Source of the DNA: Anaerolineae bacterium
GTDB lineage: Bacteria; Chloroflexota; Anaerolineae; B4-G1; SLSP01
Direction of reading: 5' to 3'
NCBI GenBank assembly: GCA_016926915.1
Contig: JAFGNR010000228.1
Coordinates: forward strand, 1 to 40,347
DNA: 40,347 bases
Below are positions 2,881 to 39,099 of the stretch, piece by piece. Position 1 is the stretch's first letter, and every line of letters begins with the position of its first letter. The notes beneath the pieces are model-generated. The model saw only the letters and a program-made list of their open reading frames with translations, ran no database searches and was not told where the DNA came from. The translations under genes and the position numbers were made by a program.

Positions 2881-4280
2881 AAGAGGGGTCCGGGATGCCA
2901 GACTTTATAGACCACAGAGACGACGCGTTCCACGTGACTTTGTTTGGTGATGCTGCAGTTGCGAGGCGAGCACTGTTCGGTGAGCCGGTGCTGATCATGC
3001 CATTAGGCACGTTTCATCGTGGAGGTGAAACGCGGACAGTGGATGAGGCTGTGGTGGCTGAGTTTGTTGACAACTTTGTACATCGTCGTGAGCGTGGCAT
3101 TCGTCGAGACAGGCTGGCTGTTGATATCAACCACGAGGGCGGCGCAGTTGGATGGTACACGGATGTGCTGCAGATGCCTGAGGGCCTGGGGGCCCGGTTC
3201 TCCTGGACGCGGCGAGGGCGCGAAGCTTTGGAAGCTGGTGAGTATGCATATTTCTCGCCGACAGTCTATTGGGCGGTGTGTGACCGGGTCACCGGAGAGA
3301 TCGTCCAGAATCAGTTGGCCGGCGGCGCGTTGACCAATTATCCCTTCTTTGGAGAGGATACGGCGCTTTATGCACAGACCAGACAGGTTTGGTACGCGGC
3401 AACGAGTGAAGACGAGTATCCAGTGAGTGCGTACTTGCTGGTTGAAAATTACAACGATCCAAGAACTTGGAATTTGCGGGTGTTGTCGTGGGAGGGGGGC
3501 GCATTGCGACCAGACCACGATTTGTTGGAAGTGGCTCGCGGGGCGCTGGCACGCTACGCGGGGCAGTTTTCGGAGTCGCAGCTGGCATATGCGCAGCAGC
3601 GGCTAGAGCAACTCTTTTCCCAAGTCAAAGAGGGAGGTCATATGAATAGGAACGGGGAAGGACAAGAAGGCGGCGATCTGCTGCGCGGGGTACGCGAGTT
3701 TTTCTCGCAGTTGGGACGAGCTGCAGGCAGTGAGACGCCGGCGACCGGGCCGGGTGTTGATCCGGAAGCCTTCAGCAATCTGCAGGCCGCCGTTACCATG
3801 ATGCAGGAGCAGATGGGAGTGCAGGCCAACGAGATCCAGATGCTGACGGGCGAACGGGACACCTACCGGTCGCAGGTCGAGACGCTGCAAGCGCAGCTGG
3901 GCGATGTGCAAAACGCCCGGTCTGCGGAGCGTTTCGCGGTGATGGCCGAGGGGTTTGCGCATCTTCCAGTGCAGTTGAGCAATTTGGCATCTCAGCTGCA
4001 GTGGTTGTATGAGCAGGACACTTCGGATGGCGGCCAGCACGTGCAGTTCTTCATGGACTTGCTGCGGAGTGCTGATACGCAGTTCGCCGAGGCTTTCGCG
4101 CAGCGGGGCCATCCTCGCGGACAAGCCGCCAGTGTGATGGCGCAGGTTGAGTCTCTGGTTGCGAAGTACCAGCAGGAGCATCCGAACAGCACTCACGATG
4201 ACGCTTTGAGCGTGGTCTTCCGCGCGAATCCGGCGCTCTACCAGCAGTACACGCAGGACATTGTGGGGGGTGAGCGATGA
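2877..4280 (+). CDS. Mu I-like phage protease/scaffold protein
   Basis: N-terminal I-like region (LAVDINHEGGAVGWYTDVLQMPEGLGARFSWTRRGREALEAGEYAYFSPTVYW) followed by a coiled-coil scaffold-like C-terminus. Confidence 0.75.
   Translation: MKEGSGMPDFIDHRDDAFHVTLFGDAAVARRALFGEPVLIMPLGTFHRGGETRTVDEAVVAEFVDNFVHRRERGIRRDRLAVDINHEGGAVGWYTDVLQMPEGLGARFSWTRRGREALEAGEYAYFSPTVYWAVCDRVTGEIVQNQLAGGALTNYPFFGEDTALYAQTRQVWYAATSEDEYPVSAYLLVENYNDPRTWNLRVLSWEGGALRPDHDLLEVARGALARYAGQFSESQLAYAQQRLEQLFSQVKEGGHMNRNGEGQEGGDLLRGVREFFSQLGRAAGSETPATGPGVDPEAFSNLQAAVTMMQEQMGVQANEIQMLTGERDTYRSQVETLQAQLGDVQNARSAERFAVMAEGFAHLPVQLSNLASQLQWLYEQDTSDGGQHVQFFMDLLRSADTQFAEAFAQRGHPRGQAASVMAQVESLVAKYQQEHPNSTHDDALSVVFRANPALYQQYTQDIVGGER
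3642..4280 (+). CDS. Nested in-frame scaffold protein (internal start of the protease gene)
   Basis: In-frame ATG preceded by AGGGAGGTCAT; product MNRNGEGQEGGDLLRGVREFF... 212 aa. Confidence 0.6.
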   Translation: MNRNGEGQEGGDLLRGVREFFSQLGRAAGSETPATGPGVDPEAFSNLQAAVTMMQEQMGVQANEIQMLTGERDTYRSQVETLQAQLGDVQNARSAERFAVMAEGFAHLPVQLSNLASQLQWLYEQDTSDGGQHVQFFMDLLRSADTQFAEAFAQRGHPRGQAASVMAQVESLVAKYQQEHPNSTHDDALSVVFRANPALYQQYTQDIVGGER

Positions 4281-9425: not shown

Positions 9426-9439
9426 ATTTCCCGGGAAAT
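9426..9439. promoter_or_regulatory. 14-bp perfect palindrome ATTTCCCGGGAAAT (candidate parS/operator, site A)
   Basis: Exact copy also at 32277-32290; lies in the 9388-9454 gap just upstream of a GGGAGG RBS. Confidence 0.5.
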
Positions 9440-23827: not shown

Positions 23828-23861
23828 CAGCCCCTTCTCATCTCACGAAGGGGCTGTTTTT
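23828..23861 (+). terminator. Intrinsic terminator of the late operon
   Basis: CAGCCCCTTC-TCATCTCAC-GAAGGGGCTG-TTTTT. Confidence 0.85.
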
Positions 23862-23875
23862 ATTTCCCGGGGAAT
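23862..23875. promoter_or_regulatory. Near-palindrome ATTTCCCGGGGAAT (site C; one mismatch from sites A/B)
   Basis: Intergenic, immediately after the late-operon terminator. Confidence 0.35.
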
Positions 23876-23890: not shown

Positions 23891-24232
23891 TTAAGTCTGC
23901 TTCATCTCAGGATGTTTTAGATCATATACGGTGATCTTTCCGGCTCGCTTTGCCTTTTGGTATATACGACACTCGTCGGCGAGTGGACAGCGGACATCAC
24001 CTGCGTAGACAGCCTGGCACTTGGCACTTGTATACTCCGAAACAAGGTCTAGCGAAGCGTTTTCTCCGAACTTTTCCTGCGCCTCGTCTATATAGTGCCC
24101 GAGCAGCGACAGGCAAAATAGCTCACGCCTCGATCGTCTAGGTCGTGACGCCCCCGCTGTTCTGATCTCGAGATCGCGATCGTTATTATTAGGCTTCTTT
24201 TCTTCATTCTTTTCAAAAAGTGACAATTGCAT
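23891..24232 (-). CDS. Small PRTRC-linked protein with N-terminal QLSLF beta-clamp motif and Cys-rich C-terminal half
   Basis: RBS AAGGAG upstream of ATG 24232; MQLSLFEKNEEKK...KCQAVYAGDVRCPLADECRIY. Confidence 0.65.
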   Translation of the reverse strand: MQLSLFEKNEEKKPNNNDRDLEIRTAGASRPRRSRRELFCLSLLGHYIDEAQEKFGENASLDLVSEYTSAKCQAVYAGDVRCPLADECRIYQKAKRAGKITVYDLKHPEMKQT

Positions 24233-24245
24233 GTAGGTGAACTCC

Positions 24246-25013
24246 TTAGGCGTGATCCACAATCGGCAGGCTGCGGGCTGATCCGGAATCTAGATCAAGG
24301 TAGGTGGCATAGATATCAAGGTCTTGGGTGACCACCAGACGATACAGATACTGAGCTGCCCAAGCAGCCATAGCCTGGTTGATCATTAGACTTTGGGCAT
24401 CTTGCTGCACCAGATCGGCGCAAGATAAGCCGTTCTCATCTGGGTCTATTATGTCCAGAAGCTCCGGGTGGAGTACGGAGGGCATTGGCAAGTGCGAGCA
24501 AAAACCCAATGGCGAGATAACGGGACACGACGTATTACTATTCCCCAGCAGTACTTGCCCGGACTGCAAGTTATTACCGCAGTCCAACCACCACGCACCC
24601 AGATTGCCGGCAGCGCTGAGAATTGATTGGCGGGCGGGTGCATTGTCCACAGCTCCCACGATGATGGTAGCATTGTCAGGACTCGTATACATGTGCAACT
24701 GCGCACACGGTTGTGCCAGATACTTGATAGACAAGCCGAATGCCAGTGAGTAACGCACCGCAAGTGTGGTGGCTTTGGGCTGACCCACCTCCGCTGGTGC
24801 GAAGTTTTGCCGTCCAATGTTTTTTTCCTCAACCGTGTCTGGGTCTACGAAGGTGAGCTGTATTTTGCGGATAGCGCGCGCGTGGTAGACCAAGCGCGCC
24901 AAATGCAGAGCCAAAAACGAGCCTGTTCCGCCACAACCAACGAGTACAATGCGGTAGATCCCGGGATCCCCCAAGAGTACTGGGTAACGTTTCCCTATTT
25001 GTATCTCCATCAT
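24246..25013 (-). CDS. PRTRC system ThiF/E1-like adenylating enzyme
   Basis: VGCGGTGSFLALHLARL, NIGRQNFAPAEVGQPKA, VDNAPARQSI: canonical E1/ThiF motifs. Confidence 0.85.
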   Translation of the reverse strand: MMEIQIGKRYPVLLGDPGIYRIVLVGCGGTGSFLALHLARLVYHARAIRKIQLTFVDPDTVEEKNIGRQNFAPAEVGQPKATTLAVRYSLAFGLSIKYLAQPCAQLHMYTSPDNATIIVGAVDNAPARQSILSAAGNLGAWWLDCGNNLQSGQVLLGNSNTSCPVISPLGFCSHLPMPSVLHPELLDIIDPDENGLSCADLVQQDAQSLMINQAMAAWAAQYLYRLVVTQDLDIYATYLDLDSGSARSLPIVDHA

Positions 25014-25597
25014 CGCCTCCGATTCAAAAACGGCCCAGTGTCGGTGAATAACACTGCCGCAGGGATGCGCCAGAAGTCACCATAAACTCCCACACGTATT
25101 GCGATCTCCGGGATCGAGTTCAGGCACCCGACAACGCCATAGAACCGACACCCTTGCTCATCACGAGTGTCGGTTTGTGAAAAGAAGGCCCGCATTGTAC
25201 CGTGGCTGTGCACCTCGGCGATGACGCTCGCCGGTTCCAGATCGCTGGTGTAGCAACTGGTCGACGGTCCGTTTACCTGGGAGGGTCGGTAAACGTGCAT
25301 CTTGTCACCGTATGGTGCAATCTGGTAAACAGCTTCATGATTGGGGTTCGCCATAGCATCACTGTAAAGCGTGCTGAGTAGCCAGCCAGGGAGGCGCCCA
25401 TAGTGCAACTCCACCCTAGGAGCCAGATTTGCTAACCCGGCAATGCGTGTCCAGGCAACCGGCACCAAAGCCTTCATGTAACGCGTCTCCGCGTACTTGA
25501 AGATCCCGTTGCCAGCCATGATGTAAGCATACTTTCCTGGCGGTAGCGAGATATCACCGCCGTTATAACACATATATTCAACCGGCGAAGGAATCAT
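25010..25597 (-). CDS. PRTRC system protein A-like JAB/JAMM metalloprotease
   Basis: JAMM motif EVHSHGTMRAFFSQTD (HxH-x7-S-x2-D). Confidence 0.8.
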   Translation of the reverse strand: MIPSPVEYMCYNGGDISLPPGKYAYIMAGNGIFKYAETRYMKALVPVAWTRIAGLANLAPRVELHYGRLPGWLLSTLYSDAMANPNHEAVYQIAPYGDKMHVYRPSQVNGPSTSCYTSDLEPASVIAEVHSHGTMRAFFSQTDTRDEQGCRFYGVVGCLNSIPEIAIRVGVYGDFWRIPAAVLFTDTGPFLNRRR

Positions 25598-25598
25598 C

Positions 25599-26315
25599 TC
25601 ATCTAATCCTCTCTATGAAATCTTCAATACACGGACGCATGGGCACCAGCGTGTCTGCTGGATATGCTGCCGAGTCCAGGGAAATCTCTGACCAGTAGTC
25701 AATAATTTCCCTGGACTCGCCCCGCACCTTGCCCTCGCTTAGATCACGATTGAAGTCCGAGTCGAAAAACATCTCTACGGCTTCCATGATGGTTTCCGGC
25801 GCGCACACCGGAAACGCCAGTGTGCCGCTGCATATCTTGCCGTTATTGCCAACGTTGGGCACCGGTGCCCGATACAACACCTCTTTGGCTTGGGGGTACT
25901 TCTCTACGGCGACGACGTAGTACTCAACTCCCGCACCCGCGAAAATCAGTGGTGGCAGAGGTACCGAGACCTTAAGCCGCCGGTTAGGCATTAACACTGA
26001 CAGCTCGCGGCGCTGTGGTGGTAGATAAACGGCCATGACTACGCCACCCTCGTTGTGGCCATAGTATATTGTTCCCGGCGGCAGCAGCCCCGATCTCCAT
26101 GGGACATTGGCTAGAGCGGCAGCCAGCGCACTCGGATGCACCTCGTAGGTGTGTGTGGGGACGCCCATCGTACTATAACGTGTGAGGATCACAGATTCAG
26201 TGAAGATATCTAGTGTTATGGCCCTATATTGTCGGATTGGGGACTCAAGCCCTTCAGTACCGGCAATCTGCGGTAACATCACACCTTGATGAGCAAGGCA
26301 AAGCGCGTTTTTCAT
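25599..26315 (-). CDS. PRTRC system protein B-like (Prok-E2 family D-like)
   Basis: VPLPPLIFAGAG...LYRAPVPNVGNNGKICSGTLAFP with the expected Cys; position next to JAB and ThiF. Confidence 0.7.
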   Translation of the reverse strand: MKNALCLAHQGVMLPQIAGTEGLESPIRQYRAITLDIFTESVILTRYSTMGVPTHTYEVHPSALAAALANVPWRSGLLPPGTIYYGHNEGGVVMAVYLPPQRRELSVLMPNRRLKVSVPLPPLIFAGAGVEYYVVAVEKYPQAKEVLYRAPVPNVGNNGKICSGTLAFPVCAPETIMEAVEMFFDSDFNRDLSEGKVRGESREIIDYWSEISLDSAAYPADTLVPMRPCIEDFIERIR

Positions 26316-27133
26316 TGGGCATTCCTTTCCATGTTCTCTATAAAGACGAGGATTTCATCTATGGACCCCTCCTTTAAGTACCAGTCCTGGAGTTTTTCCA
26401 GTTTTTCGACGCGGGGCTTAGCGGCCTGCCACGCGTCCCGCAGGAAAAGCAGATCCGGTACTTGCCAATAAAAGTCTTGAACTTCAAATAAGCCCCTCTC
26501 CCAGAGAGGAGGTGTCGTGAGAAACGGATTGGGGTCGATCTCGGTCAGCGACAGGAAAACCGTCGCCAGACCGTTGAGGGGTTCCGGTAAGTCATCCAGG
26601 GTTTCAAGAGCACGCAATGGATCCTCTGCCCATACCATATCTGGGCAGCGGTGACCGTGATACTCCCACCATTCTACCGCGATATTGGCTACAGCGGGGT
26701 CAAGTTCGCGATGCTGTGTCGCCAATACGAGTAATGGCATAGCGTAGTCTGGGATCTCGATCAGTTCCTCTAGAGAAATCCCCCATCCCACAAAAGGAAT
26801 AGGGGCCGTGAATATCTCTACTAGCGTCATTTGTTGTCCCGCCCAATACATTTCCTCTAAATAACTCATATCTAGAGGAAACAGATCGGATGCAACACAA
26901 CCGATGATCTCAGTGATCGCGTCGATTGGATCCTTGGTAAGATGCAGATCGGTATTTGGGAACAGTGTCTGTGATATCACGCCGAAGGATCCAATGAGAT
27001 GAAACCATGAAAGCAGCTCCTGGATGCTGCGATATGTTGGTATTTGGCGGGCCGCTAAGCCACGCGCAACATCCATGGTGGTTAGAACCCGGGTATTGCG
27101 TTCTGCGTGGGTGTTGGATGTAGTTGCTGGCAT
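26312..27133 (-). CDS. PRTRC-cassette protein of unknown function (possibly occupying the protein F position)
   Basis: ATGA-type overlap with protein B; start trimmed from 27337 to ATG 27133 (alternative 27076) to reduce overlap with the upstream gene. Confidence 0.45.
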   Translation of the reverse strand: MPATTSNTHAERNTRVLTTMDVARGLAARQIPTYRSIQELLSWFHLIGSFGVISQTLFPNTDLHLTKDPIDAITEIIGCVASDLFPLDMSYLEEMYWAGQQMTLVEIFTAPIPFVGWGISLEELIEIPDYAMPLLVLATQHRELDPAVANIAVEWWEYHGHRCPDMVWAEDPLRALETLDDLPEPLNGLATVFLSLTEIDPNPFLTTPPLWERGLFEVQDFYWQVPDLLFLRDAWQAAKPRVEKLEKLQDWYLKEGSIDEILVFIENMERNAQ

Positions 27134-27522
27134 TTCTCCACCAGTCTTTCTGTGTTTATCACTAACAAGTCTAAGTGCTGAAGCGCTTCTGCTATTTCCT
27201 GTTGGCGATTGACAATTTCTTCTGCAGAGGCGTTTTCCAGTTCCAGCAGGAGCGAAATCCCCGGTACCTCTAGAGGAGGGATATTTTGCAAGCAGACGAT
27301 TAGTGCTGCGCAGAGTGTTGGGCGTATCGACTGACAATAGCCTTTACGTCCTGCTCGCTTTACGAACGACACCTGGGTGATGCCATCATCACCAACGGTT
27401 TCTTCAATACGTGCCTCGGCGACCTCTGGGAAGTACGCTGCCAACTGGCGGCGTACTTCCTCTGGCGTGAACTGGTCTTCACTGTCTAAAAACTCGTAGT
27501 CCCCGTACTTATACCTCTTCAT
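27082..27522 (-). CDS. PRTRC system protein C-like (prokaryotic ubiquitin-like fold) with C-terminal extension
   Basis: FTPEEVRRQLAAYFPEVAEARIEETVGDDGITQVSFVKRAGRKG matches the protein C/Prok_Ub pattern. Confidence 0.7.
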   Translation of the reverse strand: MKRYKYGDYEFLDSEDQFTPEEVRRQLAAYFPEVAEARIEETVGDDGITQVSFVKRAGRKGYCQSIRPTLCAALIVCLQNIPPLEVPGISLLLELENASAEEIVNRQQEIAEALQHLDLLVINTERLVEKCQQLHPTPTQNAIPGF

Positions 27523-28981
27523 TTTTCCTGCCTCCTTTTAACCCCAGATAGCTGTGCAGTAGGTCTGAGATAATACTCTGAACGTGTTCCAAATCACTAA
27601 AAAAACGCATGTCGGAGGGACCTTGTCCATCGCGTCCGATGGATGCGATGACATGCCAGTCTGGGTCTTGGCCACCGTTGGGCTCTTTGATGCGGACCAC
27701 CAACACGATATCTGGATCCGGAGTTGTCGAGACGACCGTTGTGATCGGCGCCGGGATGACAAGTGGCGAGTTTGTGGCTGCCGGCTCCGGGATGACGGGT
27801 GGCGAGTTTGTGACTGCCGGCTCCGGGATGGCAGGTGGCGAGTTTGTGACTGCCGGCTCCGGGATGGCAGGCATAATGGTTGTGGTCACGGTATGCGGCG
27901 ATTCAGGTTCCGAGTTCTCAATGCTGTCTAGAGATACGCCGGCACGCCGCCAGCATTCGGGGCAGGCATACCAAGGGGTCACGTACCGCGTCTGGTCGCG
28001 GCGCCAGATGCCAGGTACCACGCTAGGCCGTCTCTTGCAGTAGTTACACCTGTCCCAAGTGCTAGGTTCGGACTGCCCCCAGTCTTGCGGGTTAAACCCC
28101 ACTGCTAGGCGCTCGGGTCCGTCACGTTCAATTAGCCACTGCGCTTTTTTGGCGTTCTGGCAGGCAGGCTTTACGCAACGAGACTGCTTGAGCACAATCA
28201 CGTTGTGCTTACAGCCAAGGCACGCGGGCAGATCGTTCTCCGGGACCCAGTCAAGTGGGAAAGGTACGTCTTTTAGTGCGCGAGTGTACACATTCACATA
28301 CTGCTTGACGGCATCGGCGAGGTCGCGTGTCGAGCGCACCTCGCCGACATCATAAACTAGATCAAGCATGCTCTCTAATGAGGCGATGCCCACTAGAGAC
28401 GCAAGCGTGCGCCCATGCTTGGCCGTGATCGTACCATTTGCAACTAGATCCTGAATCTTCTGGGGAAGCGTGAGGAGCCGCAAAAGATTGGAGATAGTTC
28501 CCTGGGTGACGCCCCACTCGCGGGCAATTTCCTTTTGTCCTAAATCCAGATTTTTCAGTGCAATTTCGATCATGTGTGCTTTCTCGATGTCATTGACCTC
28601 TTGGCGGTCTTCATTTTCCCGCCAGGCGATCGCTGCCATCTGGAAAGCCGTGAGTTCCTGGATGTCAACCGGCATGCAAGCATATTCCGGCTGACTCTGC
28701 GCCAGATTGTGAAAAGCTCGTAGCCTGCGATGACCGAAGGCGAGCTGGACGTGTATGTTAGGTCGCTGCAAGGCATCAGCTACGCCGATGATTGTGGCGT
28801 TGAACGGCTGAGAGCCGTTTACCAGACGTCCAATGGGCACCTGAAGCAGACCCAGCGTTTCCTCGCGGGCGGGACGCAGCTCCACAATGCTCTGCATGAG
28901 GTCGTCTACCTGGTAGTCGGCAGCCGCACGGCCCTGATACGGATTGTCTTTTATCTTTTCTAGCGGAACTTTGTAGATCAT
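27509..28981 (-). CDS. ParB/Spo0J-family protein with zinc-ribbon-like C-terminal region
   Basis: NPYQGR box I, AFGHRRLRAF box II, HTH QKEIAREWGVTQGTISNLLRLL; CX2C pairs CLGC...CNYC...CPEC. Confidence 0.9.
   Translation of the reverse strand: MIYKVPLEKIKDNPYQGRAAADYQVDDLMQSIVELRPAREETLGLLQVPIGRLVNGSQPFNATIIGVADALQRPNIHVQLAFGHRRLRAFHNLAQSQPEYACMPVDIQELTAFQMAAIAWRENEDRQEVNDIEKAHMIEIALKNLDLGQKEIAREWGVTQGTISNLLRLLTLPQKIQDLVANGTITAKHGRTLASLVGIASLESMLDLVYDVGEVRSTRDLADAVKQYVNVYTRALKDVPFPLDWVPENDLPACLGCKHNVIVLKQSRCVKPACQNAKKAQWLIERDGPERLAVGFNPQDWGQSEPSTWDRCNYCKRRPSVVPGIWRRDQTRYVTPWYACPECWRRAGVSLDSIENSEPESPHTVTTTIMPAIPEPAVTNSPPAIPEPAVTNSPPVIPEPAATNSPLVIPAPITTVVSTTPDPDIVLVVRIKEPNGGQDPDWHVIASIGRDGQGPSDMRFFSDLEHVQSIISDLLHSYLGLKGGRKNEEV
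27763..27870 (-). repeat. Three 36-bp tandem repeats encoding (PAIPEPAVTNSP)n linker in parB
   Basis: GTGGCGAG starts at 27763, 27799, 27835 with exact 36-bp spacing. Confidence 0.9.
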
Positions 28982-29004
28982 GGCTCTCCTTTGTTATCCC
29001 TCTC

Positions 29005-29039
29005 GCCTGCAGGCCGGTGCCCGATGCCGGCCTGCAGGC
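29005..29039. promoter_or_regulatory. Perfect 13-bp inverted repeat built of two GCCTGCAGGC palindromes upstream of parB
   Basis: GCCTGCAGGCCGG (29005-29017) / CCGGCCTGCAGGC (29027-29039), intergenic. Confidence 0.7.
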
Positions 29040-29082
29040 CACACGAGGAGGTTTTTCGCGTCACGTTCCTCGTAGGAGCGTG

Positions 29083-29670
29083 CTAATGCTGCCGTGTTTT
29101 CTGGCCACCCGGAAGCGCGATCCTACCATCAGTGAAATGTGGCACCTGGTATTGCCAAATGTGGTCGGGTAGAGCTTCTTCATGGAGTGTAAATCTGCGC
29201 TCGCCAATCTCGTGTTGGTCTACATCAATGCGGCGCGGGATCCTCGGGCCATTCCCCGGTGAGGTTCGTACCGCGTTGTAAATCAACGCTGGTAGATCTG
29301 AAAGAGCACACGAGAAACCTGAGTTGAGTTTTCCAGCCATCGAGATATGGAGATGCGCCACACGACGCACTATCATCAGATCTAGGTTTACCAGGCGGCG
29401 CATCACCCAGGTGACGCAGCCGCTCTGGCCGATAAAGCGGTCAACCACGTAGGGGCCTTTTTCAAACCGTGCCTTAACGGCCTGTCGGTTGGACTCAGCT
29501 AGGAGATCGGGGACGTTGGTGAGTAGAGACATGAGCAGTGGAGCGGCAAGCGGGTTACCCTGGACACGGAATATCTTCAGATGATCCCGGGTGACCCGTA
29601 GGCCAACGCGACCATAATAGTTTCCCGATGGCACTGCATATGACCAGGTGAAATGTTTCAAGATGTCCAT
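29083..29670 (-). CDS. Early phage protein, unknown (195 aa)
   Basis: RBS GGAGAG; in operon. Confidence 0.55.
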   Translation of the reverse strand: MDILKHFTWSYAVPSGNYYGRVGLRVTRDHLKIFRVQGNPLAAPLLMSLLTNVPDLLAESNRQAVKARFEKGPYVVDRFIGQSGCVTWVMRRLVNLDLMIVRRVAHLHISMAGKLNSGFSCALSDLPALIYNAVRTSPGNGPRIPRRIDVDQHEIGERRFTLHEEALPDHIWQYQVPHFTDGRIALPGGQKTRQH

Positions 29671-29743
29671 GTCTTCTCTCCATTCTTGTTTGACGGTATT
29701 TCCGGATGTATGAGATGCGGCAGGCGCCTAAAGATGGCTTCCA

Positions 29744-30124
29744 TCATCGGCTCACTTTCCTGATGCTGGCCGAAGGTTTCCCTTCTTTGCGGAAAACGAG
29801 AATTTCTGGATGATTAAGCGCATACCCTGTTAGAGCCTTGTCGTTCCACGATACGCGTGGTTTGGTGTAAATGATTGTGAACATCTGACCGCGCAGACTC
29901 TGCGTGGTGGCGACTACAGATTGCTTCAATTCCTGCTCCAACTCCTGACGCTTTTCATCCAGAGCAGCTATCGCGTCCTCATACTCGGATTCCGCTGCGG
30001 ACAAGGCGTCGGCTACGGGTCTGAGAATCTCGTTGCGCCGGGCGCGGTACTCTAGGTTGAGCAAATCGATTTGGCTTACGAGTTCTTCATATACGGCCAT
30101 AAGTATCTGAGGGTCAATCATCAT
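29744..30124 (-). CDS. Coiled-coil early phage protein (Gam-like/host-nuclease-inhibitor-like pattern)
   Basis: Long helix followed by KPRVSWNDKALTGYALNHPEILVFRKEGKPSASIR. Confidence 0.5.
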   Translation of the reverse strand: MMIDPQILMAVYEELVSQIDLLNLEYRARRNEILRPVADALSAAESEYEDAIAALDEKRQELEQELKQSVVATTQSLRGQMFTIIYTKPRVSWNDKALTGYALNHPEILVFRKEGKPSASIRKVSR

Positions 30125-30130
30125 ACCTCC

Positions 30131-31105
30131 CTATAGTCTGAGACTCATCATTAGGGCCGAGAGAGCTGCGTTCCAGTCTCCGTCAGATTTTGCCGTCTCG
30201 ACCACTGCCATCACATCGAATGTGTGGGCAATCTTGCCCTGCGCCTTGAGTTCGTGGTATCTCTTCCAGAAATCTGTAGAAGAGATCGCAGCAGAGGAAC
30301 GCGGGGCGTCCTCGCGGGGAAAGTAGTCGTCTAGAGGTGACGGCGTCAGGGTATTAAAAATGCGACGCGCTTCGCGCTCGGCCAGCGATTCGGCAATCCA
30401 CGCGTTACCGTCATCCTGGTATGGCTTCAGCCATCGTAGCAACGCGTGAATCTGCCCAGCGGTCATAGACGTTAGCGATCTGTGACCGGTCAGATATTCC
30501 TGGACCGCGTGCCGGCGCTCGGCGGCATCGGCTTCACCGGCGAAGGCTTGATCCAGAACCATGGCGATCCGAGACAGGCTTTGTGGGTTGATGCTTTTCG
30601 ACCCTTTATAATCTTCGGCATATTTCATGATTTTCTGCCGCACTGTACTGGGATCATACGGTCGGGTCACGGGCGCTTGCTGAGCCTGGGTAGGTGGCGG
30701 CGGCGCTTGCTGAGTCTGAGTGGTTGACGGCGGCGCGGGCGGAGTCTTTCCAAGACGCTGCAGCAGTTTCTCTGGTAGCGGTTCTACCGGCTCATCCTCT
30801 CCGAACGTGATGAGGCGGAGATATTTCACTTCACCGTCATCACCGCGACCGCTAGAACGGCTGTACCAAATGTCGTTTCCAAATTTGGGATGCGAGCGAC
30901 GCTTCCACTCACACCCCAACGCCACCACGATCGTGGGGCCGTACGCATCACTTGCCACCACCTGGGCGCCGATCTTTCCCCAATCAAATGTGGCGTACTC
31001 ATCGATGTTCCGTCTCAGACTCGGACCCGCCTCTCGGTCGCCTTGAAGTACATGCAGTATTCCCTCAAGCGCCATTACGGCGCGTTCCAGCAGTTGATCG
31101 TTCAT
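30131..31105 (-). CDS. Early phage protein with Pro/Gln-rich linker; possible DNA-binding/replication-recombination role
   Basis: Operon position; two putative domains separated by PPAPPSTTQTQQAPPPPTQAQQAP. Confidence 0.45.
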   Translation of the reverse strand: MNDQLLERAVMALEGILHVLQGDREAGPSLRRNIDEYATFDWGKIGAQVVASDAYGPTIVVALGCEWKRRSHPKFGNDIWYSRSSGRGDDGEVKYLRLITFGEDEPVEPLPEKLLQRLGKTPPAPPSTTQTQQAPPPPTQAQQAPVTRPYDPSTVRQKIMKYAEDYKGSKSINPQSLSRIAMVLDQAFAGEADAAERRHAVQEYLTGHRSLTSMTAGQIHALLRWLKPYQDDGNAWIAESLAEREARRIFNTLTPSPLDDYFPREDAPRSSAAISSTDFWKRYHELKAQGKIAHTFDVMAVVETAKSDGDWNAALSALMMSLRL

Positions 31106-31347
31106 ATTCTTCTCCTGATTACTCGACGCCGATTGTGCCGGCGCACCGGTCTACGACGCTTCTGGACCTTGATAATCTCCATAAGAGCGTTGATCGTCGC
31201 CCTTAGTTCTGCGATTTGCTGTGTGCTATGTGTGCTAGTCATACTGCTCTTGAGATCTGGTGTGTTTTTTTGGGGGGAGTGGATGTCGGCGCAGAGTAAC
31301 GCCAGATTCTTCTCAAGGAGCCAGTCGACGACGTCGTTTTCGTCCAT
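31102..31347 (-). CDS. Small protein with helical middle region and Arg-rich tail (RRRPVRRHNRRRVIRRRI)
   Basis: TGATG coupling with the upstream gene at 31347. Confidence 0.5.
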   Translation of the reverse strand: MDENDVVDWLLEKNLALLCADIHSPQKNTPDLKSSMTSTHSTQQIAELRATINALMEIIKVQKRRRPVRRHNRRRVIRRRI

Positions 31348-31787
31348 CAGGGCACCAGCGCCAGGTTGGCGTTCTCTATGTCCTGATATTCCCATCCGTC
31401 CAAGGCCCATGGAGGTAAGATCCTCTGTGTGTACCAAAGGTTCTTCGCCTCTTCTCGCATTTCCTTGATCTTGCGTGGGCTTCTCACGGGGATCGGTTGG
31501 CCAATCCAGGAACGCACAAGATTTTTCCAGACGCGCACTGTCCAGCCGCGATCAACCAGCCATTTTTTGATATTTTCGATGTTCAGATCCTCCTTTACTT
31601 GATCTACAACACAGCGCTGTTCGTAGGTGGAGAGAAACTCTTCGGTGTACATCCGCATCCGCCATTTATTCGTCCACGGGTTCAACACAAAGTCAATCCG
31701 GGCAATTGAATATCCGTTTCTCTCCAGGGGCTTTCCCTGGGGTTTCGGATACTCCGGATTGACCACCTGAGCTGGTTGTAAAGGCAT
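31347..31787 (-). CDS. Early phage protein, unknown (146 aa)
   Basis: Operon position. Confidence 0.5.
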   Translation of the reverse strand: MPLQPAQVVNPEYPKPQGKPLERNGYSIARIDFVLNPWTNKWRMRMYTEEFLSTYEQRCVVDQVKEDLNIENIKKWLVDRGWTVRVWKNLVRSWIGQPIPVRSPRKIKEMREEAKNLWYTQRILPPWALDGWEYQDIENANLALVP

Positions 31788-31790
31788 CGT

Positions 31791-32054
31791 TCACTCCTTC
31801 AAAGTCTTGACTACGCGGCACATGACATTTTTGCCGCACATCCATAGGTAATAGTCGTAAACTTCATCTGTGACCGAGTCCAGGTTTTCTAGTGTCACTT
31901 GGTCCAGGGAGACGTCCTCGACCAAGCGGTAAAACGTGGGACCATCAGCGCCGTCGACCCGCACCACTGGATAGGGTGAGCGACGGCGGGTCTGCTGTGT
32001 TCTTATCAGGAAATGCTTCGATATCAAAGTTTTGACGTCCTCAGCGGTCCACAT
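31791..32054 (-). CDS. Early phage protein, unknown (87 aa)
   Basis: RBS GGAGG and TAATG coupling at 32054. Confidence 0.55.
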   Translation of the reverse strand: MWTAEDVKTLISKHFLIRTQQTRRRSPYPVVRVDGADGPTFYRLVEDVSLDQVTLENLDSVTDEVYDYYLWMCGKNVMCRVVKTLKE

Positions 32055-32263
32055 TAGAAAACCTCCCCGGTTTGGATCTCTGGCGCAACGACAGTTTGGA
32101 AGCAGAAAGTTTCTCTGATGGGCCAATCACCGGTATGGTCTTCGATGATTGAGATTTGGGGCGGACCCAACGGCGACCAACCCTCGGCGAGAGCATCGTT
32201 GACCTGGTCCACAAGTTCGCCAACCGAAGAAGCCGTTAGAATTTTATAACGCAGTCTGTTCAT
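32054..32263 (-). CDS. DUF1737-like small protein
   Basis: MNRLRYKILTASSVGELVDQVNDALAEGWSPLG; RBS AAGGAG. Confidence 0.65.
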   Translation of the reverse strand: MNRLRYKILTASSVGELVDQVNDALAEGWSPLGPPQISIIEDHTGDWPIRETFCFQTVVAPEIQTGEVF

Positions 32264-32276
32264 GGAATCTCCTTTC

Positions 32277-32290
32277 ATTTCCCGGGAAAT
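32277..32290. promoter_or_regulatory. 14-bp perfect palindrome ATTTCCCGGGAAAT (site B)
   Basis: Exact copy of site A; just upstream of the first early gene's RBS. Confidence 0.5.
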
Positions 32291-32295
32291 TGATA

Positions 32296-32329
32296 CTAAA
32301 AATCCCCCGCCGGTATTGACGGGGGATTT
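32296..32329 (-). terminator. Intrinsic terminator/attenuator in the leader of the leftward early operon
   Basis: On - strand AAATCCCCCG-TCAATACCGG-CGGGGGATTT followed by TTAG (TTTTTA run). Confidence 0.65.
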
Positions 32330-32344
32330 GCTTTCTGTTATGAT
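32316..32344 (+). promoter_or_regulatory. Sigma70-type promoter TTGACG-N17-TATGAT for a small RNA
   Basis: Hexamers at 32316-32321 and 32339-32344 with 17-nt spacer. Confidence 0.65.
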
Positions 32345-32350
32345 GAAGGC

Positions 32351-32423
32351 ATCCCTGGGCCGCCTGTTCCGGCTTGGGGTAGGCCTCACTCTACGTTTGC
32401 GGCGTGAGTGGGGCCGTTTTTTT
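32351..32423 (+). ncRNA. Candidate ~73-nt antisense small RNA with two hairpins
   Basis: Hairpin 1 CCCTGGGCCG-CCTGTTC-CGGCTTGGGG; hairpin 2 GGCCTCACTC...GAGTGGGGCC followed by GTTTTTTT. Confidence 0.55.
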
Positions 32424-32457
32424 CTGTTAGTCATTGACGCTTGTAAAGTACAATCTA

Positions 32458-32486
32458 ATCTTATCACAGTTATTTACACTTGTCAA
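32458..32486 (-). promoter_or_regulatory. Sigma70-type promoter TTGACA-N17-TAAGAT for the leftward early operon
   Basis: On - strand TTGACA (32486-32481), 17-nt spacer, TAAGAT (32463-32458). Confidence 0.75.
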
Positions 32487-32575
32487 TAGCTAAATTGGGC
32501 ACTCGTAACTTGTCATATTGTTAGTTGGCGATATGTAGATTGCGGCGTATCTACAACTACACAGGAGAGTGCATC

Positions 32576-33583
32576 ATGAAACCCCTACATCTACGTCTGT
32601 CGCAAGCTATCACGGGCTTCTTGCTGGAAAAGGAAGCCGCTGGCAAGAGCCCTCACACACTGAGAAACTACCGGGGCACTTTTGCTAAGGTAGAGGCGTT
32701 TCTGGTGGCACGTGGGTATGGTGACCCGCTGCTGCAGGAAATCAGCCGCGAGATCTGGGTGGAGTTTCTGGCTTGGCTGCAAGAGCAGCCCTTGGGAGGC
32801 GCAGCTGCGCGTTCTGGGCGACTCAGCGCCAAAACGGTGTGTAACGTGCACACCGATTTGAGCGCTCTGTATACTTGGGCCACCCGGCTCGGATATACTG
32901 AGGAGCATCATCTCAAGAGCATCGAGCGTCCGGAATATGATCGTCCAGCCATCGAAACCTTCACGCGTGAGGAGGTGACCGCTTTACTACGGGCCTGCGA
33001 CTACGTTCAGCAGGCGGTGGGGAGTGGCGATGGGCGGCATACAGTACGCCGGCGGCGTCCCACGGCAATCCGCGATCGGGCTATCATCAAATTGTTACTA
33101 AGCTCTGGGATTCGAGCCTCGGAGCTTTGTTCTGCGCGACTCACTGACCTCGATCTCAAACGGCGACAATTGCGCGTCGCCGGGAAAGGAAAGGGACGTG
33201 ATTCCAAGGTACGCCTAGTCTTCTTTGGAACGCGTACCCAGCGTGCCCTATGGCGTTATCTAACAGAATTTTCAGAGGAACGCCCTGAGACCGCACGGGT
33301 GTTTGTAGTCGATTTTGAGAATCCCCGACCCATGAACCGCGGCGTATTGCGGAAGATGTTGTTGCGAACTGGACAACGCGCTGGCCTCAGCGGTGTGCAT
33401 CCCCATCGCTTTCGACACACGTTTGCAGTAAACTATTTGAGGAACGGAGGGGATGTACTCACGTTGCAGGCAATTCTGGGACATACCGATTTGCGCATGG
33501 TTAAACACTATGCGCATGTCGCCGCACAAGACTGTGAAGCAGTTCACCAGCGTGCCGATCCGGTGGATACTTGGGGGCTGTAG
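32576..33583 (+). CDS. Tyrosine recombinase / phage integrase
   Basis: HPHRFRHTFAVNYLRNGGDVLTLQAILGHTDLRMVKHYAHV; upstream R in SSGIRASEL; RBS AGGAGAG before ATG 32576. Confidence 0.92.
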   Translation: MKPLHLRLSQAITGFLLEKEAAGKSPHTLRNYRGTFAKVEAFLVARGYGDPLLQEISREIWVEFLAWLQEQPLGGAAARSGRLSAKTVCNVHTDLSALYTWATRLGYTEEHHLKSIERPEYDRPAIETFTREEVTALLRACDYVQQAVGSGDGRHTVRRRRPTAIRDRAIIKLLLSSGIRASELCSARLTDLDLKRRQLRVAGKGKGRDSKVRLVFFGTRTQRALWRYLTEFSEERPETARVFVVDFENPRPMNRGVLRKMLLRTGQRAGLSGVHPHRFRHTFAVNYLRNGGDVLTLQAILGHTDLRMVKHYAHVAAQDCEAVHQRADPVDTWGL

Positions 33584-33789: not shown

Positions 33790-34467
33790 ATGGCACGAAG
33801 ACGGCACAAACTATCACGCGACCTCGATCAACTGAGCAAGAAGTTGCAAGCGTGGACCAGACGAGAGGCGGCTTATCGCGATAGCTATCGCCGGGCTCTT
33901 GTCGTGGGTAGAACGCAGCAGTGGATGAGGCTTTCACCGACAGAGTTCGAACTCTACATCGGCGCGCTGTTTCAGAAGTTTGGTTGCGATGTGCTCCATA
34001 CCGGAAAAACCGCCGATGGCGGTGTTGATCTCATTGTAGAGAAGAACGGGCGCCGGGGACTGGTGCAGTGTAAGCGTTATACCAATCCAGTTGGCGCCTC
34101 AGCCATCCGAGACTTTCGGGGGGCAATGGTGCGTGAAAGGGTTGACCTGGGCTTTTTCGTAACCACCAGTCGCTTCACTGCCAATGCACGTCGTGAAGCT
34201 GAAGATTTCTCCCCTACGATCGTTTTGTACGATGCTGCCAAGTTGGCGCAGTTGTCAGATGAGCTGGAAGGAGACGCAATCGGGAATGCCACCTACCCAA
34301 AACCCATCAAGCGCAAACAGACGCCGGGGTACGCATTGGCGGACATCTTCAGCGGTTTCATGGGGAAGGCGTTGGCGATTGGGATTCTGCTTCTAGGCGC
34401 CATCACGTGCTGTTTGGGACTACCTTTCATTTTGGCTCTTGTCGGAAATCTGGGGAACGCCCGCTAG
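33790..34467 (+). CDS. Mrr-like restriction endonuclease (PD-(D/E)xK) with C-terminal TM segment
   Basis: GCDVLHTGKTADGGVDLIVEKNGRRGLVQCKRY; C-terminal ALAIGILLLGAITCCLGLPFILALVG. Confidence 0.8.
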   Translation: MARRRHKLSRDLDQLSKKLQAWTRREAAYRDSYRRALVVGRTQQWMRLSPTEFELYIGALFQKFGCDVLHTGKTADGGVDLIVEKNGRRGLVQCKRYTNPVGASAIRDFRGAMVRERVDLGFFVTTSRFTANARREAEDFSPTIVLYDAAKLAQLSDELEGDAIGNATYPKPIKRKQTPGYALADIFSGFMGKALAIGILLLGAITCCLGLPFILALVGNLGNAR

Positions 34468-38008: not shown

Positions 38009-38022
38009 TGCAATCGATTGCA
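38009..38022. promoter_or_regulatory. LacI-type operator TGCAATCGATTGCA (upstream of GH3 gene)
   Basis: Identical palindrome upstream of the lacI-family gene. Confidence 0.75.
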
Positions 38023-39085: not shown

Positions 39086-39099
39086 TGCAATCGATTGCA
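39086..39099. promoter_or_regulatory. LacI-type operator TGCAATCGATTGCA (upstream of lacI-family gene)
   Basis: Identical palindrome, 17 bp upstream of the start codon. Confidence 0.75.

Follow-up and report, generated by a model that had tools for sequence, protein, structure and literature searches.

A putative ubiquitin-like conjugation and removal cassette linked to ParB in the early operon of a Chloroflexota prophage

Gene content and predicted catalytic residues

The sequence analyzed, referred to here as the window, was a whole contig of 40,347 nucleotides (nt) from the 4.3-Mb draft genome of a Chloroflexota (Anaerolineae) bacterium. It carries a tailed temperate prophage, the early operon of which ends in a cassette of seven leftward genes (positions 28981 to 23891, minus strand). 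Along the operon, these are predicted to encode a ParB-family DNA-binding protein (ParB), a ubiquitin-like protein (Ubl; protein C), protein X, an E2-like protein (B), a JAMM/JAB metalloprotease (A), an E1-like activating enzyme (ThiF), and protein Y. Neighboring genes abut or overlap by 4 to 17 nt. A first-pass annotation of the window had proposed this tightly coupled set of Ubl, E2, JAB, and E1 genes of the PRTRC (6d) type with a ParB gene; all of its gene coordinates were recovered, and profile matches were obtained for every member of the set. Its description of ParB as fused to the set was not upheld, as ParB is linked by operon, not fused. The Lys-Gly junction of the Ubl, the interchange of its C-terminal cargo, the phage relatives with several Ubls in tandem, and the dispersed palindromes described below go beyond that annotation. 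Mobile 6d/PRTRC operons have been predicted to be bacterial ubiquitin-like systems since 2006 (PMC1779556). No paper testing a 6d/PRTRC operon was found in the literature searched, and none of the papers mentioning PRTRC was about phages, judged by titles and abstracts.

ParB (27509 to 28981) contains a GHRRLRA box and a ParB helix-turn-helix and matched TIGR00180 over its cutoff (4.1e-21) as well as HTH_ParB (1.9e-17). Protein C (27082 to 27522) matched TIGR03738 (PRTRC_C; 4.2e-8) and, slightly under the cutoff, Prok_Ub (4e-5). The PRTRC_B-like protein B (25599 to 26315) matched Prok-E2_D (3.2e-23) and TIGR03737 (2e-20), so that the products of both genes for which a lack of profile matches would have refuted the earlier proposal, C and B, were recognized by profiles. 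The PRTRC_A-like protein A (25010 to 25597) matched Prok-JAB (2.5e-6) and TIGR03735 (2.4e-14), and ThiF (24246 to 25013) matched TIGR03736 (PRTRC_ThiF; 1.1e-47). Sequence searches of the PDB with A, B, and C returned nothing relevant. Protein Y (23891 to 24262), the product of the last gene of the operon, is a small Cys-containing protein of 123 amino acids, the gene for which overlaps that of ThiF by 17 nt; it had no Pfam or NCBIfam family and no homologue among the fetched loci.

Protein X (26312 to 27085; 257 amino acids) lies in the slot held by PRTRC_F in plasmid cassettes. No Pfam, NCBIfam, or PHROG match to X was found, and its predicted AlphaFold model is all-helical (pLDDT, 91.8), with no fold relative in the PDB or BFVD. 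The possibility that X is a divergent PRTRC_F was unsupported (hhalign probability of 0.4% against the F profile). X-like genes form a tandem pair in three related phage contigs (L240, L241, and L242), the usual number being one per cassette.

The predicted catalytic residues of the E1, E2, and JAB proteins are all intact. In ThiF, the GCGGTG nucleotide loop is encoded at 24921 to 24938, residues D57, D59, N65, R68, Q69, K80, and D123 were noted, and Cys172 and Cys198 are candidate thioester residues; the loop, Arg68, Lys80, Asp123, and both cysteines were invariant in a 14-sequence alignment. The E2 catalytic residue Cys162 (codon 25830 to 25832) was invariant (57 of 57 fetched homologues), and the JAMM residues of A (E88, H130-S-H132, S140, and D143) were retained in at least 47 of 48 homologues.

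A ThiF-fold E1 accompanied by a small beta-grasp protein would also suit a sulfur carrier of the ThiS or MoaD kind, with the pair serving cofactor or tRNA sulfur chemistry. However, no rhodanese, sulfurtransferase, thiamine, or molybdopterin gene was found in the operon, and this explanation, to which almost no probability was assigned, was rejected because E2 and JAB proteins are present.

Lys-Gly junction of the putative Ubl precursor

Protein C comprises a Ubl domain (residues 1 to 61; 27340 to 27522, minus strand), the last residues of which are Lys60-Gly61, and a C-terminal extension of 85 residues (residues 62 to 146 plus stop; 27082 to 27339, minus strand) that is a separate gene in relatives. 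The AlphaFold model predicts a beta-grasp domain (bb-a-bb), in line with the Ubl assignment of the first-pass annotation, and beyond Gly61 a low-confidence stretch followed by helices, with Pro-Gly-Phe at the end of the chain. The tail around Gly61 lies between two well-predicted domains, and its low confidence would fit an exposed junction. A fold search with the model gave a PB1 domain as the best match (E = 0.41, not significant); PB1 domains have a ubiquitin-like fold.

After Met1, K60 and G61 were the sole invariant residues when 14 C proteins were aligned. Lys-Gly was found at the junction in 63 of 64 distinct fused proteins, and Gly-Phe formed the C-terminal end of 91 of the 110 extension-bearing open reading frames. 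In about 29 homologues, the protein stops at the Gly of Lys-Gly or one residue beyond it, and the extension, where found, is typically the next gene, with its own start. These split forms are not broken genes, because the extension is typically a gene of its own; its reading frame usually differs, and a 4-nt overlap is frequent. Sequencing frameshifts were likewise ruled out as the origin of split C genes, since the stop falls at the same Gly across many genomes and each extension gene has a separate start. On an E1 tree, the fused and split forms interchanged about 14 times, counted under a loose state assignment in which some loci were called split when the Ubl went unrecognized; the direction of the result is independent of the exact number. 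In the phage relatives L103, L105, L106, L239, and L240, a quite different sequence follows the Gly.

Tandem Ubl genes were also observed. In Bacillus phage KLEB27-3, gp199 (positions 2931 to 3638 of locus L261), annotated as hypothetical, consists of four 57-residue Ubl units, each ending in VKAGVKG, and a 7-residue tail; the repeat has a 171-nt period with an 81% match, and genes for an E2, a JAB protein (gp195), and an E1 (gp194) lie nearby. One chain of Vibrio phage D69 contains three tandem Ubls, and two Anaerolineae loci contain two Ubls each.

The split, fused, and tandem arrangement around Lys-Gly looks like precursor processing at Gly. Eukaryotic polyubiquitin and ubiquitin-ribosomal-protein fusions are precursors processed at Gly. 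The JAMM protease of the cassette would be the obvious enzyme to cut such a precursor. This pattern in 6d-type phage cassettes is taken as new with respect to literature available without subscription. The fused form is the commonest, and the extension might therefore remain attached, with the Ubl acting as a noncovalent scaffold and no conjugation taking place. The invariant Lys-Gly, relatives with a free Gly, swapped cargos, tandem Ubls, and retained JAMM residues all argue against such a scaffold, which was considered very improbable.

Distribution and phage setting

IMG/VR contigs were scanned with one or two E1 motifs, the degenerate E2 alignment being too diverse for use as a query, and all IMG/VR counts are therefore lower bounds that include a few near-duplicates. 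At least 78 contigs contained at least one cassette component, and at least 47 contained Ubl, E2, JAB, and E1 genes together. Homologues of X were present in 45 of these 47 contigs, and ParB lay directly upstream of the Ubl in 22. Of 45 IMG/VR contigs tested, Terminase_6N matched 15 (E ≤ 0.001), with 11 matches over the curated cutoff; at least 15 contigs are thus phages, and the phage status of the others relies on the IMG/VR classification. Among the best 80 loci from GTDB genomes, the four-gene set was present in 57, of which 9 had ParB just upstream. The order ParB-C-X-B-A-ThiF was kept in many loci, and chance grouping is excluded because the identical gene order recurs in dozens of independent loci. 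In the E1 tree, built with FastTree and to be read with care, the window groups, with support, among 23 rows, of which 17 are from phages.

Protein searches across 50,697 phage records identified such sets in three phages, Burkholderia phage BgVeeders33, Bacillus phage KLEB27-3, and Vibrio phage D69, as well as near copies of the Ubl gene and E1 of D69 in Vibrio phages D148 and D181. The cassette genes of these named phages are mostly annotated as hypothetical.

The element in the window is a true tailed temperate prophage, with a head-tail module and an integrase adjoining host genes, and the first proposal, which placed the cassette within an early operon of a tailed phage integrated in its host, was borne out. 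The late module (1 to 23810, plus strand) runs rightward and includes genes for a head protease (from 2877), a major capsid protein (from 4688; phrog_1005, 1.9e-67), and a tape measure protein (from 10171), together with tail or fiber genes. Terminase and portal genes were not found in the window, because the contig begins within the head genes. The right prophage end is marked by a tyrosine integrase (32525 to 33583, plus strand; PF00589, 8.4e-35), with host genes beyond, and homologues of the LacI and APH genes of the right flank lie near each other in two genomes of the same family. The IMG/VR contigs G751 and G755, each about 56.7 kb long, are colinear with the late module and contain the cassette. 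In best segments, their respective identities to the window were 63 and 55% for the capsid protein, 62 and 53% for the head protease, and 61 and 63% for the protein encoded at 13 to 600. The cassette is therefore part of a phage lineage and not a stray host island.

The early operon extends leftward from 32467 to 23891, with the cassette as its distal part and the upstream early genes (29083 to 32467) on the same strand. One of the latter (30131 to 31105) is DdrB-like, DdrB being a Deinococcus single-stranded DNA-binding protein, and five related loci (L032, L103, L105, L106, and L107) have a DdrB homologue directly upstream of their ParB gene.

Comparison with described systems

By its sequence matches, the cassette is of the 6d/PRTRC operon type and is a variant rather than a canonical PRTRC set. 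ThiF passed the PRTRC_ThiF cutoff (162.5 versus 144.75 bits), and no other cassette protein passed its own PRTRC cutoff. Matches to PRTRC_A, B, and C were significant yet under the cutoffs (53.4 versus 101.8, 73.2 versus 131.45, and 33.2 versus 45.95 bits, respectively), and ParB scored 33.7 bits against a cutoff of 278.6 for PRTRC_parB (TIGR03734). No match to PRTRC D, E, or F was found among the operon genes scanned (23891 to 31105). The PRTRC reading of the first-pass annotation is thus partly right. Compared with PRTRC plasmid cassettes (TIGR03734 to TIGR03742), such as that of Cupriavidus sp. EM10 plasmid p352-3 (L010), the window has the same order of ParB, C, a helical-slot gene, B, A, and ThiF but is phage-borne, lacks E and D, has X in place of F, and encodes a fused Ubl precursor.

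The 6d operon as described comprises a small Ubl with a conserved C-terminal Gly, a helical protein, an E2 with a conserved Cys, a JAB protein, and an E1 (Iyer, Burroughs and Aravind 2006, PMC1779556); its E2s have a conserved His downstream of the Cys, and its JAB-N domain has a conserved Arg and Trp (PMC1779556). The window likewise has, in one operon, a Ubl with a conserved Gly, a largely helical protein, an E2 with the Cys, a JAB protein, and an adjacent E1. It differs in the 85-residue extension of the Ubl, in the Asp that replaces the downstream His of the E2, and in its location in a phage early operon with ParB. The Lys-Gly of the window is conserved but internal and would become C-terminal only if the precursor were cut; in the relatives that stop there, it is C-terminal as encoded. 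The likeness of X to the 6d helical protein is in helicity alone. Tandem Ubls (one to three) and Ubl fusions have already been described for 6e operons, for which release of Ubl domains by JAB was proposed (PMC1779556). Those operons usually have a JAB-E1 fusion and a Cys-less E2-like RWD domain; here, separate genes encode E1, E2, and JAB, and the E2 retains its Cys.

Among the named phages, BgVeeders33 (OK665841) resembles the window in having C, B, A, and ThiF in a phage genome but passes all five PRTRC cutoffs and has a canonical F, with no ParB detected beside its C; its cassette proteins, ThiF excepted, are annotated as hypothetical. The KLEB27-3, D69, D148, and D181 sets also place Ubl, E2, JAB, and E1 in one region, with Ubl units ending in KG, but have three or four Ubls per polypeptide, distant sequences, and no recognized ParB or X.

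The chemistry of E1, E2, and JAB is shared with CBASS Cap2/Cap3 and Bil, the latter also including a Ubl. In Bil, the tag is placed on phage structural proteins; in CBASS, Cap2 primes its own enzyme. The cassette could accordingly serve superinfection exclusion or act against the host, tagging proteins of rival phages or of host defense during lysogeny or early infection, with ParB a mere neighbor or a regulator. Consistent with such a weapon are the chemistry common to known antiphage Ubl systems, the weak similarity of the E1 to PADLOC E1-E2 and BilD, and the 25 of 47 phage contigs that have the set without ParB directly upstream. PADLOC gave no family-level match to Bil or CBASS, however: similarity was limited to the E1 core, A and B matched no defense family, and C matched one unrelated model weakly. 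Operon content also differs from that of CBASS and Bil, and linkage to ParB and the DdrB-like gene indicates DNA-related functions. A role of this kind was judged unlikely, if worth keeping in view.

ParB and candidate sites

The first-pass annotation also raised the possibility that the cassette might modify phage or host proteins, ParB itself among them. The adjacency of ParB to the cassette in 22 of the 47 phage contigs is real and indicates linkage only. A perfect 14-nt palindrome, ATTTCCCGGGAAAT, occurs in the early leader (32277 to 32290) as a candidate ParB site, with a second exact copy at 9426 to 9439 and a one-mismatch copy at 23862 to 23875, immediately beyond the cassette end. It has the form TTT-six bases-AAA, recalling parS; no canonical parS was found in the window at up to 3 mismatches. 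Of the 22 ParB-linked loci, 6 contained repeated perfect 14-nt palindromes, compared with a mean of 0 after shuffling; where ParB did not lie directly upstream, the count was 3 of 28 loci. The excess in the ParB-linked group is suggestive but not proof, and the six loci are not independent, because three of them share one palindrome. The dispersed palindromes could be candidate ParB sites. Within parB, tandem 36-nt repeats (27746 to 27871) encode a repeated Pro-rich linker, IPEPAVTNSPP.

These palindromes, together with the 389 plasmid records that contain PRTRC-type E1 genes, would also be consistent with a plasmid-type partition or maintenance module that has been carried along, in which ParB does the work, with Ubl enzymes that either modulate it or are simply passengers. 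Against this are the integrase of the prophage, the lack of a ParA gene among the scanned genes, the mainly phage clade of the E1 tree, and the tight conservation of catalytic residues, which is unlike that of a passenger. Such a partition or maintenance module was regarded as improbable.

Proposed mechanism

It was considered moderately probable that the cassette is a self-contained 6d/PRTRC-type system for Ubl conjugation and removal, operating in the early operon of a temperate phage by the following steps. Protein C is produced as a precursor, Ubl-Lys60-Gly61-extension. Protein A would cut after Gly61, ahead of Tyr62, freeing the Ubl C terminus and releasing the helical extension. The E1, to judge from its conserved residues, would adenylate Gly61 and take the Ubl onto Cys172 or Cys198, and the E2 would accept it on Cys162 and transfer it to a target amine. 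Protein A would additionally remove the tag from targets. More speculatively, X and the released extension might be adaptor or target-recognition parts, and ParB might bind the dispersed palindromes on the phage genome. The most likely site of action would then perhaps be the complex that proteins, ParB among them, form with phage DNA during its replication or maintenance.

Several observations weigh against this proposal. The downstream His of the E2 is Asp (FNRDL); many homologues have His, and several others also have Asp. The A gene was not recognized in phage relatives L138, L140, L143 to L146, L149, and L150. Repeated palindromes were not found in 16 of the 22 ParB-linked loci, most of these 16 being represented only by fragments of about 20 kb. 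Neither an E3-like protein nor a target was identified, and no biochemistry was found for any member.

A broader idea, tentative and on balance doubted, is that a phage family has a complete Ubl tagging machine of its own. Maturation would proceed as for eukaryotic ubiquitin, from tandem precursors resembling polyubiquitin and from cleavable fusions of Ubl to cargo, and during infection the machine would act either on host proteins or on the phage genome bound by ParB. Cleavage by the JAMM protein after Gly is the direct prediction that follows from the Lys-Gly junction, the swapped cargos, and the tandem Ubl genes; it is checkable in vitro, and the same features bear on the age of the polyubiquitin and Ubl-fusion strategy. 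The phage setting would make function accessible to plaque assay, mutants, and proteomics within one infection.

Other features of the window

A candidate early promoter (TTGACA-17-TAAGAT with TG) was noted at 32458 to 32486 (minus strand); the assignment is weak because promoter counts equal those in shuffles (6 sites in the region versus 6.7 expected). Where the early and late operons converge, a hairpin resembling a terminator, AGCCCCTTC/GAAGGGGCT, with a T-rich run after it, was read at 23829 to 23866 (plus strand). Among the head genes, a Glyco_hydro_cc glycosyl hydrolase (2086 to 2880) is perhaps related to lysis or entry. An Mrr-type restriction endonuclease gene (33790 to 34467) lies between the integrase and the host genes and could be prophage or host cargo. 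A perfect palindrome, TGCAATCGATTGCA, occurs in two copies (38009 to 38022 and 39086 to 39099) on either side of the host lacI-family gene and is operator-like, as expected.

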